Source: an uncultured Clostridia bacterium
Lineage (GTDB): Bacteria; Bacillota; Clostridia; Christensenellales; UBA1750
Length of the DNA: 64,000 nucleotides
Reading direction: 5' to 3'
Assembly (NCBI GenBank): GCA_904393115.1
Contig: CAJFMX010000010.1
Location: forward strand, 1 to 64,000
Below are positions 57,347-63,779 of this stretch, in pieces. Within the stretch, counting starts at the first letter, position 1, and every line of letters starts with the position of its first letter. The notes below the pieces were generated by a model that was not told the origin of the DNA, searched no databases, and saw only the letters and a list, made by a program, of their open reading frames with translations. A program made the position numbers and the translations under genes.

Positions 57347-57391
57347 GCGAGGAGCCGAAGGACGAAAGATCCTTCGGCTCCTCGCTTGTTT
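57347..57391 (+). terminator. Rho-independent terminator
   Basis: A perfect 16-bp stem (57347-57362 and 57370-57385), loop CGAAAGA, then TTGTTT. Confidence 0.9.
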
Positions 57392-57579
57392 GGGGAGAAC
57401 TGGGAAATTTACCTGGGATTTACAAAACGTAGAGGAATTCTTGAATTCCCTTTGTTATAAAAAGCCGAGGCGCCGCGCCGGAAGCGGGAATGGAACAATT
57501 TCAAAGAAAAATGGGCAAATCGATCCCGGTTTTTTGCAGAGAGGGACCGTATTTCTATATGTGGGAGGGATTCTGCTGC

Positions 57580-58302
57580 ATGAGAGAGGAACACAAGATC
57601 CTTCAGCAGGTCTATGCGGCAAAGGAGGACGTACAGGCGGCGGATCAGCTGATCGTCGCCTACATGCCCTTCATCAAGGCGGAGACGGGGCGGTTTCTGC
57701 GCCGCATGCCCGTGGAGGGGCTGGACGACGAGCTGAGCATCGCCATGATCGCCTTCCACGAGGCGATCGGCGGGTATTCCCGTGCCCGCGGCGCGTTTCT
57801 GAACTACGCGTCCCTGCTGATCCGCAGCCGGCTGATCGACTACAGCCGCAGGGAGCAGCGGCACCGCCGCAACCTTTCCCTGGACGCGCCGGCCGGGGAG
57901 GACGACGCCGCCCTGGGCGAGACCCTGGCCGCGGAGGACGACCCGCACGAGGAGGCGGTGGCCCGGTATGCGACCCGCATGGAAATCGAGGAGCTGACCC
58001 GGCAGATGCAGGCGTTTGGCGTCAGCCTCCACGACGTGGCGGACAACTGCCCCAAGCAGCAGCGCACGCTGGAGGCCTGCCGGAAGGCGCTGCGGCACGC
58101 GCAGGAGAACCCGGAACTGCTGGAGGCCTTCCTCAAGACGAAGAAGCTCCCCCTCGGGCCGCTGGCGGCCGCCGGCGTGGAGCGCAAGACGCTGGAGCGG
58201 CACCGCAAGTACCTGGTGGCCCTGCTGCTGATCGCCACCAATGGATATGAGATCCTCCGCGGGCATTTGCGGCAAGTGATGAAAGGAGGGGCAGCGCGAT
58301 GA
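57580..58302 (+). CDS. sigI: Sigma-I type RNA polymerase sigma factor
   Basis: 240 residues from ATG 57580 (GGGAGGG upstream). Region 2 motifs match SigI: LIVAYMPFIKAETGRFLRR, DELSIAMIAFHEAIGGYS and SLLIRSRLIDYSRRE. The C-terminal part has GVSLHDVADNCPKQQRTLE and GVERKTLERHRKYLVALL, the SigI DNA-binding region. SigI factors in Clostridia answer to extracellular signals through membrane anti-sigma partners of the RsgI family. The stop overlaps the start of an RsgI-like gene by 4 bases. Confidence 0.92.
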   Translation: MREEHKILQQVYAAKEDVQAADQLIVAYMPFIKAETGRFLRRMPVEGLDDELSIAMIAFHEAIGGYSRARGAFLNYASLLIRSRLIDYSRREQRHRRNLSLDAPAGEDDAALGETLAAEDDPHEEAVARYATRMEIEELTRQMQAFGVSLHDVADNCPKQQRTLEACRKALRHAQENPELLEAFLKTKKLPLGPLAAAGVERKTLERHRKYLVALLLIATNGYEILRGHLRQVMKGGAAR

Positions 58303-59111
58303 AGTACCTGGTCATGGAGTGCCACCCCGGCTATGCGATCCTCCTGGACGAGGAGGGGCGCTTCCGCAAAGCGGCCAATCTGCACTACAAAGTCGGGCAG
58401 ACCGTGCGCGACCCGGTGTGGATGCGGACGGAGAGGCGGCGCCCGGCGCGCTGGGTCCGCAGCGGGATCGCGGCGGCCGCGGCCTGCCTGCTGCTCTTCC
58501 TGGGCGTGCAGTTCTATCAGGGCTATTTGCAGCCCTATTCCTTCATCTACCTGACCATCAACCCGGAGGTGCGGATGAACCTGAACCGCCAGGGGACGGT
58601 CGTCGGGCTCGCGGGGACCAATGCGGACGGCGAGGCGCTGCTGGAGGGCTACGACGGCAGGGGAAAGAACAAGGTGACCGTCGCGGACGAGCTGATCGAC
58701 CGGGCCATCGAGATGGGCTTCCTCTCCGACGGCGGCCGGGTCTCCTTCTCGATCGACGCCCCGGACGAGGCCCTGTTCCAGGCCTATGGAACGGAGCTGC
58801 GCACCGAGGTGACGGAGCACCTGGACGGGCGGATTCTCGTCACGCTGGAGATCGTCGACCACGACCGCGCGCAGGAGGCGCTGGCCAGGCCCTCTGCATC
58901 GGGCACCGCCACGGCAACGCCCGCGCCAACCCCCACCGCAATCCCCACGCCCACGGCGACGCCCTCGCCCGAGCCGACCCGGCCGGCCAACACGCCCACC
59001 GCCGCGCCCCCCGCGGGGGACAGCGGCTACGGCGACAGCGGCTATGACGACGACGGCGACAGCGGCTATGACGACGATGACGGCGGGGACAGCGATTACG
59101 ACGACGATTGA
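58299..59111 (+). CDS. RsgI-like membrane anti-sigma factor with an acidic repeat tail
   Basis: 270 residues. The cytoplasmic N-terminus MKYLVMECHPGYAILLDEEG with ANLHYKVGQTV is the RsgI anti-sigma domain. One membrane helix (AAAAACLLLFLGVQFYQGY) follows, then the RsgI middle domain (IYLTINPEVRMNLNRQG), a Thr/Pro linker and a 30-residue tail made of Asp, Gly, Ser and Tyr (GDSGYGDSGYDDDGDSGYD). Clostridial RsgI proteins often end in carbohydrate-binding modules; here the end is this acidic tail instead. It should hold SigI until a surface signal arrives. Confidence 0.9.
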   Translation: MKYLVMECHPGYAILLDEEGRFRKAANLHYKVGQTVRDPVWMRTERRRPARWVRSGIAAAAACLLLFLGVQFYQGYLQPYSFIYLTINPEVRMNLNRQGTVVGLAGTNADGEALLEGYDGRGKNKVTVADELIDRAIEMGFLSDGGRVSFSIDAPDEALFQAYGTELRTEVTEHLDGRILVTLEIVDHDRAQEALARPSASGTATATPAPTPTAIPTPTATPSPEPTRPANTPTAAPPAGDSGYGDSGYDDDGDSGYDDDDGGDSDYDDD

Positions 59112-59222
59112 TTTTCCCCAAAAAGTTTCCGGCGCACCCCGGTTTTCCCAGCCCGCCCCCGTACTCTATGGATGTAAGGCAAGACAAAAGCCAATCCAAA
59201 CGCGTCGAAAGGAGCAACCCAC

Positions 59223-60263
59223 ATGAAAACGAGAAGAAAACTCTTTGCAGCGGTCTCTTCCCTGGCTGTCGCGCTGACAGTCCTTCTGACCGGATGCGCG
59301 GAGCCGGAGGGCGCTGCGCTGCGGGACACCGGCACCCTCACCCTGAGCGTCAACCCGGAGATCCAGATCGAGTACGACGAGGCGGGCAGGGTGCTCGCCC
59401 TGACCGGCCGCAACGAGGACGGCAAGGACATCGTGGAGGTCTACACCGACTACATCGGGAAGGACTGCGACGAGGTCCTGCAGGACCTGATCGTGGAGAT
59501 CCACGAGGCCGGCTTCTTCGTGGACGGCGTGGACGGCAACGAAAAGAACATCGTCCTGCAGCTGGAGCCGGGCTCCGTGCTCCCGGACGACGACTTCCTG
59601 GAGGAGATGTGTGCCAGCACGCAGGCCGCGGTCCAGGGGCTGGACCTTTCCTCCGGCATCGTGACCATCGACAGCGGGGACTATGACCCGGCCTATGCGC
59701 AGGGCGGACAGCCGTCGCCCTACATCACCCTGGAGAAGGCGCAGGAGATCGCGCTCGCCCAGGCGAACGTCCCGGCGGCGGAGGCCGTGTTCGACGACAG
59801 GGACTTCGACCACGACGACGGCACCCCGATCTTCGAGCTGGAATTTGCCGCCAACGGAAACGAGTATGAATACGACGTCCACGCCGTGACGGGCAAGGTC
59901 GTCCGGGCGGAGCACAGAATCCTCGTCGCCCAGCCCGCGGACGGCGCGGCGAACTACGACGACACGGACTACGGCCCGAACAGCGACGGCGTGACCGACT
60001 ACGGCGACACGGACTACGGCCCGAACAGCGATGGCGTGACGGACTACGGCGACACGGACTACGGCCCGAACAGCGATGGCGTGACGGACTATGACGACAC
60101 GGACTACGGCCCGAACAGCGACGGCGTGACGGACTACGGCAACTCGAACTACGGCGACACGAACTACGGTAACTCGAACTACGGTAATTCGAACTACGGC
60201 GATTCCAACTACGACGACGGCGGCAGCGACTACAGCGACGGGGATTCCGGCTATGACGATTGA
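59223..60263 (+). CDS. Lipoprotein with RsgI-middle-like and PepSY-like domains and a long repeat tail
   Basis: 346 residues. Lipobox LLTGC (Cys 25). The first domain (LTLSVNPEIQIEYDEAGRVLALTGRNEDGKD in part, cited as SVNPEIQIEYDEAGRVL) aligns with the RsgI middle domain of the previous gene (TINPEVRMNLNRQGTVV). A PepSY-like domain follows: ITLEKAQEIALAQANVP and FELEFAANGNEYEYDVHA. The last 110 residues are tandem repeats rich in Asp, Tyr, Asn, Gly and Ser. GAAAGGAG precedes the ATG. It may be an envelope sensor or a structural surface protein. Confidence 0.82.
   Translation: MKTRRKLFAAVSSLAVALTVLLTGCAEPEGAALRDTGTLTLSVNPEIQIEYDEAGRVLALTGRNEDGKDIVEVYTDYIGKDCDEVLQDLIVEIHEAGFFVDGVDGNEKNIVLQLEPGSVLPDDDFLEEMCASTQAAVQGLDLSSGIVTIDSGDYDPAYAQGGQPSPYITLEKAQEIALAQANVPAAEAVFDDRDFDHDDGTPIFELEFAANGNEYEYDVHAVTGKVVRAEHRILVAQPADGAANYDDTDYGPNSDGVTDYGDTDYGPNSDGVTDYGDTDYGPNSDGVTDYDDTDYGPNSDGVTDYGNSNYGDTNYGNSNYGNSNYGDSNYDDGGSDYSDGDSGYDD
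59961..60140 (+). repeat. Four tandem 45-bp coding repeats
   Basis: Units at 59961, 60006, 60051 and 60096 each encode DTDYGPNSDGVTDYG or a one-residue variant. Nucleotide identity between units is very high. They are followed (60141-60215) by shorter 15-bp NSNYG/DTNYG units. Confidence 0.92.
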
Positions 60264-60951
60264 GCCGGGAAAGACCCCTTCCCTGCGGCACGAGTGGAAG
60301 CACCAGATCAACCCGCAGGAAGATCTGGTGCTTTCCCAAAGGCTTCGCAAGCTGTTCCCCCGCGACGGAAACGCGGGGCCGGACGGCGCCTACCGGGTGA
60401 CCAGCCTGTATTTCGACACCCCGTATGACAGCGCCCTGCGCGAGAAGCTCGACGGGGTCAACCGGCGGGAAAAGTTCCGCCTGCGCTACTACGGGACGGA
60501 CCTCTCCTTCCTGCGGCTGGAGAAGAAGTACAAGGTGAACGGCCTGTGCGGCAAGCGCAGCGCCCGCCTGACGCGGGAGCAGGCGGAGCGGCTGCTCGAT
60601 GGCGACGCGCGGTTCCTGCTGGATACAGGGGACGCCCTGCTCCTGGAGCTGTACAGCAAGATCCAGGGGCAGGGGCTGCGGCCGAAGACCATCGTCCGCT
60701 ACGACCGCGAGGCCTTTCTCTATGCGCCCGGCAACGTGCGCATCACGCTGGACCGGGACATCCGCACCGGCCTTGGCAGCGTGGACTTTTTGAACTCGGG
60801 GGTGTTCTGCGTGCGCGCGGCGGGCCCCGGCACGGTGCTGGAGGTCAAATACGACGCGTTTTTGCCGGAGATCGTCCGCATGGCGGTGCAGGTGCCCGGC
60901 AGGCGGGCGGCGGCCTGCTCCAAGTACGCCCTTTGCCGCCGGTTGGATTGA
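60253..60951 (+). CDS. VTC-domain polyphosphate polymerase-like protein
   Basis: 232 residues, overlapping the previous gene by 11 bases. Tunnel-fold VTC residues are present: EWKHQI, TSLYFDTPYDSALREK, REKFRLRYYG, LRLEKKYKV, YDREAF, RITLDRDI and VLEVKYD. In yeast VTC4 this domain makes polyphosphate from ATP; bacterial stand-alone versions commonly sit with DUF4956 and CotH genes, exactly as here. No membrane segment; activity at the inner face of the membrane is likely. Confidence 0.88.
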   Translation: MTIEPGKTPSLRHEWKHQINPQEDLVLSQRLRKLFPRDGNAGPDGAYRVTSLYFDTPYDSALREKLDGVNRREKFRLRYYGTDLSFLRLEKKYKVNGLCGKRSARLTREQAERLLDGDARFLLDTGDALLLELYSKIQGQGLRPKTIVRYDREAFLYAPGNVRITLDRDIRTGLGSVDFLNSGVFCVRAAGPGTVLEVKYDAFLPEIVRMAVQVPGRRAAACSKYALCRRLD

Positions 60952-60974
60952 ATTCGTCAAGAGGAGGGGCTGCC

Positions 60975-61646
60975 ATGACGTTTCGGGATGTTTTCAAGTC
61001 CGACTTTCTGGAGAACATCGCCAGCGTTTCCCTGCTGGACATGGGGATTGCGCTGGTCCTGGCCTTTCTGCTGGGGTTGTTCCTCTTTTTCATCTACAAG
61101 AAATGCTATAGCGGCGTGATGTACTCGGCCAGCTTCGGCGTGACGCTGATCGCTCTGGCCATGATCACGGCGCTGCTGATCCTGACGGTGGTGAGCAACG
61201 TCGTGCTGTCCCTGGGCATGGTGGGCGCGCTGTCCATCGTCCGCTTCCGCACGGCCATCAAGGAGCCCATGGACATCGCGTTCCTGTTCTGGGCCATCGC
61301 GATGGGCATTGTGCTTGCGGCGGGGCTGATCCCGCTGGCGGTGTTCGGCAGCATCGGCATCGGCGCGGTGCTCTACGCCTTTGCCAAAAAGAAGACGGTG
61401 GATTCCCCCTACATCCTCGTGCTGCACTGCGAAAACGGGGAGACGGAGGAGCGGGCGCGGGCGTTTGTGCAGTCCCAGGTCAAGCGCCTGAACCTCAAGA
61501 GCAAGAGCGTAGACGAGGGCCGCATCGAGCTCAACTACGAGGTCCGCCTGCGGGAGGACAGCAGCGCCTTTGTCAACGAGCTGGAGGCGATGGCGGGCGT
61601 GTCCCGGGTCGTGCTGGTCTCCTACAACGGCGACTACATGGGCTAG
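60975..61646 (+). CDS. DUF4956 family membrane protein
   Basis: 223 residues from ATG 60975 (GAGGAGGGG upstream). Three or four helices (ALVLAFLLGLFLFFIYK, ASFGVTLIALAMITALLI), the family-typical LSLGMVGALSIVRFRTAIK, then a cytoplasmic ferredoxin-like domain of about 85 residues. Function unknown, but it is a regular partner of VTC-domain proteins and may serve as their membrane platform or channel. Confidence 0.88.
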   Translation: MTFRDVFKSDFLENIASVSLLDMGIALVLAFLLGLFLFFIYKKCYSGVMYSASFGVTLIALAMITALLILTVVSNVVLSLGMVGALSIVRFRTAIKEPMDIAFLFWAIAMGIVLAAGLIPLAVFGSIGIGAVLYAFAKKKTVDSPYILVLHCENGETEERARAFVQSQVKRLNLKSKSVDEGRIELNYEVRLREDSSAFVNELEAMAGVSRVVLVSYNGDYMG

Positions 61647-61650
61647 GGCG

Positions 61651-63120
61651 ATGGAACAGCATCGGCACATCGACCGGATCTGCGTCGGCGCGGCGGCCCT
61701 GGCCGCCCTGCTCGCGCTGCTGCTGATGTTCGGCGAGCAGCTGGGGATTCCCAAGGCCAGCGCCAACCCGGGATACGCGTCCCGGCTGTTCGACGACAGC
61801 CGGGTGCACACCGTGAACATCCAGATCGAGGACTGGGGCGCGTTCCTCGAGGGCGCGGAGGAGGAAGCGTACGCGGCCTGCACCGTGGAGATCGACGGAG
61901 AAACGTTCCGGAACGTGGGGATTCGGGCAAAGGGCAACAACTCCCTGCGGCTGACGGCGGAATACGGGCTCTCCCGCTACAGCCTCAAGCTGGAGTTCGA
62001 CCAGTTTCAGGACGGCGGAAACTACCACGGGCTGGACAAGCTCTCCCTGGACGCCTCCTTCCAGGACAACAGCTACCTGAAGACCTATATCGCGTACGAC
62101 ATGATGCGGTTCCAGGGGGTCCCCACGCCGCTCTGCAGCTATGCCTGGGTGACGGTGAACGGGGAGGACTGGGGCCTGTTCCTGGCGGTGGAGGAGCCGG
62201 AGGAGGCCTTTGCCCGCCGGAACTTCGGAAAGGATCACGGCCAGCTGTACAAGCCGGATTACCGCTCCCTGCGCGCGGAAAACGCCGACGTCGCGCTGCG
62301 CTACATCGACGACCGGCCGGAGAGCTATCCCGGCATCTTCGAAAACGCCAAGTTCCCGACCACGGAAGCCGACCAGGCGCGGGTGATCGCCGCGCTGAAG
62401 ACCCTGTCCACCGGGGAAAACCTGGAGACCGCCATCGACGTGGAGGAGGTGCTGCGCTACTTTACCGTGCAGGTCTTTGTGATGAACTGGGACAGCTACC
62501 TGGGCTACACGGGGCACAACTACTTTCTCTACGAGGAGGAGGGGATCCTGCGCATCCTGCCCTGGGATTACAACCTGGCCTTTGGCACCTACGCGCTGGG
62601 GATGACGAACCCGGTCCAGGACCCCAACGTCCTGATCAACTACCCGATCAACACCCCGGCGGAGGGCGCGGTCATGCGCAACCGCCCGCTCTACCACAAC
62701 GTGATGCAGCACGACGCGCACTTCGCCCGGTATCGCGCGCTCTTTGACAGGCTGATCTCGGGATACTTCGAGAGCGGGCGCTTTGCGGCCACCCTCCGGC
62801 GGGCGGAGGCGCAGATCGCGCCCTACGTCCAGCGGGACCCGACGGCGTTCTGCTCCTTTGCAGACCATCAGCGGGCGGTCGACGCGCTGGAAGAGATCTG
62901 CCTGCTCCGGGCGCAGAGCGTCCGCGGGCAGCTGGACGGGGAGTTCCCCGACACGCTCCGGGAGCAGGCGGAGAACCCCGGCGCCGGGGTGGATGCCTCG
63001 GGCGTCCAGCTGACCGATTTGGGGGACTTTGCGGACCTGGAGGAGGCCAGGGACAGGCAGGACGCCGCCCGGCAGAACGTCCAGGCGCGCACCGATCGCT
63101 CCGCAGCCGAAGGGGGCTGA
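61651..63120 (+). CDS. CotH-family protein kinase, membrane anchored
   Basis: 489 residues from ATG 61651, 4 bases after the previous stop. One N-terminal helix (AAALAALLALLLMFGEQL) anchors it outside the cell. CotH motifs: IRAKGNNSLR, RYSLKLEFDQF, DKLSLDASFQDNSYLKTYIAY (in part), GLFLAVEEPEEAF, and the catalytic end NWDSYLGYTGHNYFLY with LPWDYNLAFG, which keeps the two Asp residues. CotH of Bacillus phosphorylates serines of spore coat proteins. The nearby repeat-tailed proteins are possible substrates. Confidence 0.9.
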   Translation: MEQHRHIDRICVGAAALAALLALLLMFGEQLGIPKASANPGYASRLFDDSRVHTVNIQIEDWGAFLEGAEEEAYAACTVEIDGETFRNVGIRAKGNNSLRLTAEYGLSRYSLKLEFDQFQDGGNYHGLDKLSLDASFQDNSYLKTYIAYDMMRFQGVPTPLCSYAWVTVNGEDWGLFLAVEEPEEAFARRNFGKDHGQLYKPDYRSLRAENADVALRYIDDRPESYPGIFENAKFPTTEADQARVIAALKTLSTGENLETAIDVEEVLRYFTVQVFVMNWDSYLGYTGHNYFLYEEEGILRILPWDYNLAFGTYALGMTNPVQDPNVLINYPINTPAEGAVMRNRPLYHNVMQHDAHFARYRALFDRLISGYFESGRFAATLRRAEAQIAPYVQRDPTAFCSFADHQRAVDALEEICLLRAQSVRGQLDGEFPDTLREQAENPGAGVDASGVQLTDLGDFADLEEARDRQDAARQNVQARTDRSAAEGG

Positions 63121-63144
63121 GAATGCTCCCCCTCGGCTTTTTTT
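63106..63144 (+). terminator. Rho-independent terminator after the CotH gene
   Basis: GCCGA-GGGGG (from 63106) pairs with CCCCC-TCGGC (to 63137), followed by seven T. Confidence 0.8.
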
Positions 63145-63437
63145 GCCTGTTTTTGAAAGACGCTGTGCATTTTTTGCAGGGTGGAAAAGAAAATCCTGCA
63201 AAATGCACAAAGAACGGGAAAACGGAGAATGAGCTGAAAAATATGAAAAAATGAAGATTTTATTGGGAAACATCGAATGAAAACAAATTTTTCGTGTGTT
63301 CAACATATGGAAATCTTGTTTTTTAATCGGGGAAGCCGTTTGACGGAAAAAACTTTGCCGGCATGGGGATTGACAGCCTGCATATGCGGCATTACAATAA
63401 ACGAAAATTCAGGGCGAGAAGCCGGAAAGGAGAGCGC
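63121..63437 (+). other. Intergenic region between the CotH and PII genes
   Basis: Contains the terminator above, about 220 AT-rich bases in which no gene or clear motif was seen, and the PII promoter at 63370-63398. Confidence 0.6.
63370..63398 (+). promoter_or_regulatory. Promoter of the PII gene
   Basis: TTGACA (63370-63375), 17 bases, TACAAT (63393-63398), 40 bases before the start codon. Confidence 0.8.
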
Positions 63438-63779
63438 ATGAAAGAGTTGAATCTGATCGTTCGCGCGGAGAAGCTGGAAGAGATCAAGAAAATCCTCATC
63501 GACGAGTTCGGCTGCGGCGGCATGACGGTTTCCAACGTCCTCGGCTGCGGGGGCCAAAAGGGCTTTGCCGAGGAATACGTCGGAACGCGGACGCATGTCA
63601 ACCTGCTGCCCAAGCTGGATGTGCGCGTGGTGGTCAGGGACGAGGACGTCGAGACCATCATCGACAAGCTCTGCGAAGCCGTCCGCACCGGTCACTACGG
63701 GGATGGAAAGATCTTCGTGCGCGAAGTGCTCGACGCCGTGCGCATCCGCACGCGCGAACGCGGAGAAAAGGCGATCTGA
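63438..63779 (+). CDS. PII-family nitrogen regulatory protein
   Basis: 113 residues from ATG 63438 with AAAGGAG upstream. Small trimeric signal protein that binds ATP/ADP and 2-oxoglutarate. Signature regions: GCGGQKGFAEEYVG (T-loop, with Tyr), NLLPKLDVRVVVRDEDVE, and the C-terminal signature TGHYGDGKIFV. There is no ammonium transporter or glutamine synthetase gene beside it, so it is an orphan copy here. Confidence 0.92.
   Translation: MKELNLIVRAEKLEEIKKILIDEFGCGGMTVSNVLGCGGQKGFAEEYVGTRTHVNLLPKLDVRVVVRDEDVETIIDKLCEAVRTGHYGDGKIFVREVLDAVRIRTRERGEKAI

Follow-up and report, generated by a model that had tools for sequence, protein, structure and literature searches.

In Bacillus subtilis, the anti-sigma factor RsgI is constitutively cleaved, and its two halves stay joined until a cell-wall defect is sensed (PMC10202637; for the mechanism of its SEAL domain we also draw on PMC10575876 and PMC12203970). 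Published sigma-I promoters read ACCCCC--AA-N15-CGAA in Bacillales and contain CGWA in clostridia, with CGTA for SigI3 (PMC4711584, PMC10575876). In B. subtilis, moreover, the kinase CotH phosphorylates disordered serine-rich tandem repeats of CotB and CotG, which are encoded next to cotH (PMC7821199). Here, we analysed a locus that brings relatives of these elements together: a six-gene block in a stretch of 64,000 nucleotides from an uncultured Clostridia bacterium (the window; contig CAJFMX010000010.1 of assembly GCA_904393115.1, positions 1 to 64,000), encoding SigI, RsgI, a repeat-tailed lipoprotein with a SEAL domain, a VTC-domain protein, a DUF4956 membrane protein and a CotH kinase. 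An earlier note on this DNA had read the block as one sigma-controlled surface system, and this was borne out by the co-occurrence of the genes in a clade of SigI factors and by a promoter type shared between both halves of the block. Judged from sequence, the locus is probably a self-contained sigma-I circuit that would build a phosphorylated surface layer.

Gene order, shared promoter and distribution

The window's SigI was scanned across one genome per GTDB species (434 relatives), and the best 80 loci (L051 to L130) were retrieved with their flanks and annotated by homology. All six genes occur together in 38 of the 49 resolvable loci. CotH is found in 47 of them, including one (L129) in which it lies upstream of sigI; nine of these 47 have neither VTC nor DUF4956, and the two loci without CotH are L110 and L130. 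The other 31 of the 80 stop early at a contig edge, mostly inside the repeat tails of the lipoprotein or RsgI: metagenome assemblies systematically truncate such loci at repeats. In one genome (G036), one repeat terminates both the contig with sigI and the contig with VTC-DUF4956-cotH. In another (G003), the tail at which the contig of sigI stops overlaps the beginning of the contig that carries cotH, VTC and DUF4956 being absent there. The hosts belong to several orders, mostly from chicken gut, and include Lachnospiraceae, Oscillospiraceae, Christensenellaceae-like bacteria, Emergencia and Traorella. Since the six-gene arrangement is conserved in dozens of species, it is a conserved system and not a product of chance.

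Gene calls (57580–63120) and folding agree with the earlier description of six genes in one direction flanked by terminators, as a stem-loop was found on each side of the block. Its features are:

57347..57388, + strand: stem-loop 5′ of the block, predicted terminator of the upstream gene (folding −40.6 kcal/mol, z −6.9; poor in T-tract)
57525..57556, + strand: predicted sigma-I-type promoter 1 (CCCGGTTT ... CGTATTTCT) 5′ of sigI, conserved before sigI; one of two genome-wide matches
57580..58302, + strand: sigI, SigI-family sigma factor of a distinct clade (sequence searches)
58299..59111, + strand: rsgI, membrane anti-sigma factor with RsgI_N, one transmembrane segment (by inspection), SEAL domain, Pro/Thr-rich stretch and acidic DSGYDDD tail
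58536..58877, + strand: SEAL (RsgI_M) domain of RsgI with the Asn-Pro motif INPEV
about 59137..59168, + strand: predicted sigma-I-type promoter 2 (CCCCGGTTT-N14-CGTACTCTA) 5′ of the lipoprotein operon, exact match
59223..60263, + strand: lipoprotein gene with lipobox (LTGC), SEAL domain, PepSY domain and repeat tail
59352..59357, + strand: codons of Asn44-Pro45, predicted autoproteolysis bond of the lipoprotein's SEAL domain (Asn-Pro in 68/68 lipoproteins)
59949..60260, + strand: repeat tail of the lipoprotein, four DTDYGPNSDGVTDY units followed by NYGDSNY/DSGYDD
60253..60951, + strand: VTC (polyphosphate polymerase-like) domain protein
60975..61646, + strand: DUF4956 membrane protein with a MgtC-like C-terminal ACT domain
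61651..63120, + strand: cotH, exported CotH-family protein kinase with catalytic Asp pair D281 and D306
about 63105..63143, + strand: terminator 3′ of cotH, stem-loop followed by TTTTTTT (T7 tract; folding)

Genes sigI and rsgI overlap by 4 nucleotides (nt) and the lipoprotein and VTC genes by 11 nt; VTC is followed by DUF4956 after 23 nt and the latter by cotH after 4 nt. As the gap of 111 nt that separates the lipoprotein gene from rsgI houses the second promoter, the block is, by its predicted signals, more than one transcription unit.

Upstream of sigI and again upstream of the lipoprotein gene stands the pattern CCCCGnTTT-N14-CGTAnTCT, with a fixed 23-bp register. A strict script recovered it in 65 of 81 sigI upstream regions and in 52 of 59 intergenic regions before the lipoprotein gene, and about a dozen more sigI upstream regions contain it with one additional T. 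Because the C-rich −35 and the CGWA-type −10 elements agree with the published consensus, the pattern is best read as a sigma-I-type promoter, with sigI predicted to be autoregulated. The 2.73-Mb genome of the window holds only two matches, starting at 57525 and about 59138 and thus both at the locus, with none on the opposite strand and none for a reversed control; in relatives, chance matches average below one per genome. Across 20 SigI-bearing genomes, the sites with 0–1 mismatches are, apart from a few, the pair at the locus, so that the SigI regulon looks local. The clade promoter was found at 0 of 40 SigI loci from outside the clade, and at the other 20 a looser pattern gave a sole weak match, off the start of sigI.

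The best evidence that SigI is linked to the downstream half by regulation comes from family f114, in which SigI-RsgI lies at one locus and lipoprotein-VTC-DUF4956-CotH at another, in trans. Six of the nine separated loci (L310, L312, L313, L314, L316 and L318) still have the promoter, with one mismatch at most, and at L315 the contig stops before the promoter region. Since most of the split downstream halves retain a copy, the link is, as far as promoters can tell, regulatory and not mere adjacency, and it is strongly supported by these patterns that SigI drives two units, sigI-rsgI and lipoprotein-VTC-DUF4956-cotH.

Some loci depart from the common promoter layout. At L236 (6405–6731), four tandem copies of the sigma-I promoter, spaced by about 105 bp, lie between rsgI and the lipoprotein gene. 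Two clade SigI loci without CotH (L238, L239) have a CGAA promoter and, downstream, a secreted protein of about 1376 amino acids (aa). A CGAA-type locus and a CGTA/CotH system occur together in one genome (G367), a coexistence that suggests insulated promoter specificity.

Compared with solved structures, the window's SigI aligns over its full length with SigI6 (8i24, E 6e-31) and SigI1 (E 8e-28) and contains sigma-70 region 2. It is by sequence a SigI-family member of a divergent clade, since the cut-offs of the curated NCBIfam SigI models are missed (best equivalog score 166.6 bits against 306 needed; TIGR02895, 152.8 bits against 185). Among 391 Clostridia genomes, 11 loci score 311–425 bits and the rest at most 180 bits; denser sampling of one order yields intermediates of 261–308 bits, and the gap around the clade is therefore narrower than at first sight. 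CotH is present at six of these 11 clade loci. At the 60 SigI loci retrieved from outside the clade, neither the lipoprotein nor VTC, DUF4956 or CotH occurs. The window's SigI shares 80% identity with one from Candidatus Merdivicinus and 56–64% with SigIs of order mates in its own lineage (56–61% in A1); together with the absence of a clade SigI from three genus mates, this makes transfer or patchy loss likely. Despite this patchy distribution, no mobile carrier was found: phages, viral contigs and plasmids yielded no clade SigI, and plasmids have only Bacillales SigI of 26–32% identity. At L242, sigI is split in two frames with rsgI and the lipoprotein gene still open, a possible sign of decay.

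Seen from VTC, the picture differs. A set of 61 related genomes contains 49 VTC genes, of which 45 lie within 1.5 kb of DUF4956 and 33 within 4 kb of CotH; a true SigI lies within 5 kb of a single one, the window's own. Hence, VTC-DUF4956-CotH is an older and broader unit that was recruited by this SigI clade. The earlier note had named independence of the SigI/RsgI pair and this triad as what would speak against its reading; such independence is absent from the SigI side and present from the VTC side. Two further sets occur in the window's own genome. One (contig C5, L048 3091–10627), without SigI, consists of a large CotH protein, VTC and DUF4956, followed by a metallo-beta-lactamase-like and then a triple-PepSY lipoprotein; the gene run downstream of VTC at L036 (G003) is the same, and PepSY lipoproteins were found repeatedly beside the triad. 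The other (contig C1, L047 4957–8380) is the third VTC-DUF4956 pair of this genome; it adjoins the gene of a 902-aa protein and has no CotH. Following the block in the window, a gene for a PII-like nitrogen regulator (63370–63779, named by inspection) has its own sigma-70-like promoter, TTGACA-17-TACAAT.

The SEAL lipoprotein, its repeat tail and CotH

RsgI of the window matches RsgI_M (E 2e-17) and, weakly, RsgI_N (18.7 bits against a cut-off of 25), the latter exceeding the cut-off in another clade member. The lipoprotein likewise has an RsgI_M (SEAL) domain (E 1e-13), which the earlier note had missed, joined by a PepSY domain (E 1e-9), and aligns directly with RsgI (34% over 106 residues, E 5e-10), with which it also shares repeats and the DSGYDD ending. 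Of 68 lipoproteins, 66 have a lipobox and all have the Asn-Pro motif. In the AlphaFold2 model of the lipoprotein (predicted local distance difference test, pLDDT, 85), Asn44-Pro45 lies between strands 37–42 and 46–51, and the best solved fold match is B. subtilis RsgI (8t9n, template-modelling score 0.74 by target). Chain B of solved Clostridium thermocellum RsgI1 (8hep) aligns from the Pro residue onward (phmmer), which fits cleavage of the Asn-Pro bond, and the SEAL domain of the lipoprotein would by analogy cleave itself likewise. Taken with the promoters, these matches bring the regulatory unit and its SEAL lipoprotein close to being shown. At L310 (1917–4433), the SEAL lipoprotein gene is duplicated before VTC-DUF4956-CotH; its first copy was scanned and has no PepSY domain.

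The tail of the lipoprotein is built from the repeat DTDYGPNxDGVTDY, of which 293 units read D-T-D-Y-G-x-x-x-D-G-[VIA]-T-D-Y. DTDYG repeats occur in six of the 391 Clostridia genomes, each time at a clade SigI locus, and a Pfam scan of the tail found no repeat family, calcium-repeat families included. The window's CotH matches Pfam CotH (E 2e-58) and B. cereus CotH (5jd9, E 8e-17), and its residues D281 and D306, invariant in 20 sequences, correspond to B. subtilis D228 and D251, as read off the 5jd9 alignment. CotH of the system type scores at least 670 bits, other CotH at most 295 bits. An S/T/Y repeat tail and system-type CotH are both present in 61 cases, both absent in 15 and mixed in none, with CotH scored locally in a first batch and genome-wide in a second one, which added 20 loci from two groups; their genomes and those of apparent exceptions were searched for system-type CotH. 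Both traits switch eight times on the SigI tree, and the best tree gives eight independent contrasts, all of them concordant (two-sided sign test ~0.008). Where clade loci lack CotH, the tail is acidic, with D accompanied by K, R, H or W instead of S/T/Y, or there is no tail. Loci of f114 with DSDY tails and no local CotH have CotH elsewhere in the genome, as predicted. Beside CotH, the tail repeats are tandem and rich in phosphate acceptors, their disorder being judged from composition alone. This strict co-occurrence and the analogy to CotB and CotG make it likely that the tail is a substrate phosphorylated by CotH.

The VTC domain of the block (E 4e-33) matches yeast Vtc4 by profile (3g3q, E 9e-7), and its Arg, Lys and Glu positions, which we take to be the tunnel residues of the Vtc4 polymerase, are invariant in 28 members. 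DUF4956 (E 2e-11) is a membrane protein of several helices whose C-terminal domain is ACT-like and nearest to that of MgtC, in a predicted model of low confidence (pLDDT 68); the likeness to MgtC/ACT was noted earlier for a homologue in Streptococcus intermedius (PMC12345266). As both are absent at nine of the 47 CotH-bearing loci, an indispensable role was ruled out, and VTC and DUF4956 look accessory to the system. A polyphosphate step is possible for this pair, an assignment that we make with reserve.

Proposed circuit and competing explanations

In the circuit that we favour, RsgI would keep SigI inactive at the membrane, while its extracellular SEAL domain would cut itself at Asn-Pro with the halves staying joined. 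Once the disordered RsgI tail is pulled or meets a defect of wall or surface, the tail half would depart, a site-2 protease would cut RsgI and SigI would be freed, a release mechanism known for the SigI/RsgI family and transferred here by inference (PMC10202637, PMC10575876, PMC12203970). Freed SigI would then transcribe sigI-rsgI and lipoprotein-VTC-DUF4956-cotH from one promoter type. The lipoprotein would serve as a lipid-anchored copy of the RsgI SEAL domain with PepSY and a long acidic S/T/Y tail, able to shed or to bear the sensor's load, and exported CotH would phosphorylate its repeats and often those of RsgI, too, as CotH does with CotB and CotG. Phosphorylation of the tail would alter the charge of the surface and act back on the sensor. 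VTC and DUF4956 may act as an accessory phosphate supply, conceivably with polyphosphate that is synthesised at the membrane or crosses it. More doubtful is the proposal that the induced secreted kinase phosphorylates RsgI, as a mechanosensor, as well as the SEAL lipoprotein and would thereby reset the sensor, with VTC/DUF4956 perhaps supplying polyphosphate across the membrane.

Several observations weigh against this circuit. Just four of the eight contrasts between tail and CotH fall on well-supported branches (sign test p = 0.125), and the set of tail motifs was fixed after the first 55 loci, DS-x-Y being added for the second batch. The tails are D/N-rich and resemble calcium-binding or purely structural repeats. 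At some CotH-bearing loci, such as L073, the RsgI tail is poor in acceptors, so that RsgI may not be a CotH substrate there. In f114, three of the nine separated operons lack a recognisable promoter: besides L315, where the contig stops short, L311 and L317 have none or one-mismatch sites that are less clearly placed.

Could CotH, VTC and DUF4956 instead have a surface polysaccharide, or its synthesis, as their target, with the tail as a calcium-binding or charged spacer? In streptococci and clostridia, pel clusters directly adjoin genes for CotH, a polyphosphate polymerase and DUF4956 (PMC7112168), deletion of a CotH-like and a DUF4956-like gene in S. intermedius lowered Pel and aggregation (PMC12345266), and the tail repeat has D-x-D and N-D-G patterns as in calcium-binding loops. 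We nevertheless regard this as unlikely: the conserved block holds no polysaccharide synthesis genes, the tails of CotH-less loci stay acidic and lose S, T and Y, and the calcium-repeat families of Pfam are missing from the tail.

The lipoprotein might also be a decoy or co-sensor that competes with RsgI for wall contact and tunes SigI, with the target of CotH elsewhere. SEAL domain and repeats are indeed common to RsgI and the lipoprotein, which is present at most CotH-less clade loci, but the strict match of tail and CotH would then be left unexplained, and L238 and L239 are clade loci with RsgI and without lipoprotein; we consider this explanation improbable. Chance adjacency or shared transfer of two functionally unlinked modules, to which the many relatives with VTC/DUF4956/CotH but no SigI and the separate SigI-RsgI of f114 might point, was rejected as very improbable, given the gene order kept across orders, the same promoter on both halves, mostly even after their separation, and the match of tail and CotH.

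Relation to described systems

If the favoured circuit holds, CotH kinases outside spores gain a concrete candidate substrate and regulator, the orphan VTC/DUF4956/CotH triad gains a testable context, and SigI/RsgI signalling would extend past wall repair and cellulosomes. A further new element would be a lipoprotein in which the self-cleaving SEAL domain of the sensor is employed again. Cultured isolates of Faecalibacterium, Blautia, Lachnoclostridium, Gemmiger and Merdimmobilis carry the system, which makes it testable. It is widespread in gut Clostridia and, to our knowledge, unrecognised as such. The earlier note knew of no described system of this make-up, which held for the circuit and the tail repeat, as no description of either was found in a library of open-licence papers, and held less well for the gene set, since a similar one is listed, without interpretation, for NELoc-2 of C. 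perfringens.

The gene table of NELoc-2 comprises a SigI-like factor, an anti-sigma factor, two VTC proteins and two membrane proteins of 222–226 aa, which make up two VTC/DUF4956-like pairs, and CotH (PMC2879425, PMC11677781). In contrast to the present system, it lists no SEAL lipoprotein and contains a resolvase, and HEAT and glycosyltransferase genes come after the set. Its membrane proteins were labelled tubulin/FtsZ at the time, and the set was never analysed as a sigma-controlled circuit (PMC2879425, PMC11677781). The pel-associated cluster has the same triad of CotH, VTC-type polymerase and DUF4956 (MgtC/ACT) (PMC7112168, PMC12345266), whereas here pel and other polysaccharide genes are missing from the conserved block and SigI, RsgI and the SEAL lipoprotein are added. 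With CotB/CotH/CotG of B. subtilis, the locus shares a CotH kinase gene adjoining genes for acceptor-rich tandem-repeat proteins; here, however, the repeats are acidic with T/Y/S instead of Ser/Lys/Arg, we infer the substrate relation, and the protein is lipid-anchored at the surface under SigI, not part of a spore coat. With SigI/RsgI of B. subtilis and C. thermocellum, the locus has in common the kind of sigma factor, a SEAL anti-sigma factor with Asn-Pro, an autoregulated operon, a CGWA −10 and a C-rich −35 and, as regards B. subtilis, a disordered extracellular RsgI tail. Unlike there, SigI belongs to a separate clade, and the second unit consists of a SEAL lipoprotein and CotH, not of wall enzymes or cellulosome genes. 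SigI/RsgI, CotH and the CotH/VTC/DUF4956 cluster are thus each known, and what is probably new is a SigI/RsgI output made of a SEAL lipoprotein and its probable kinase.

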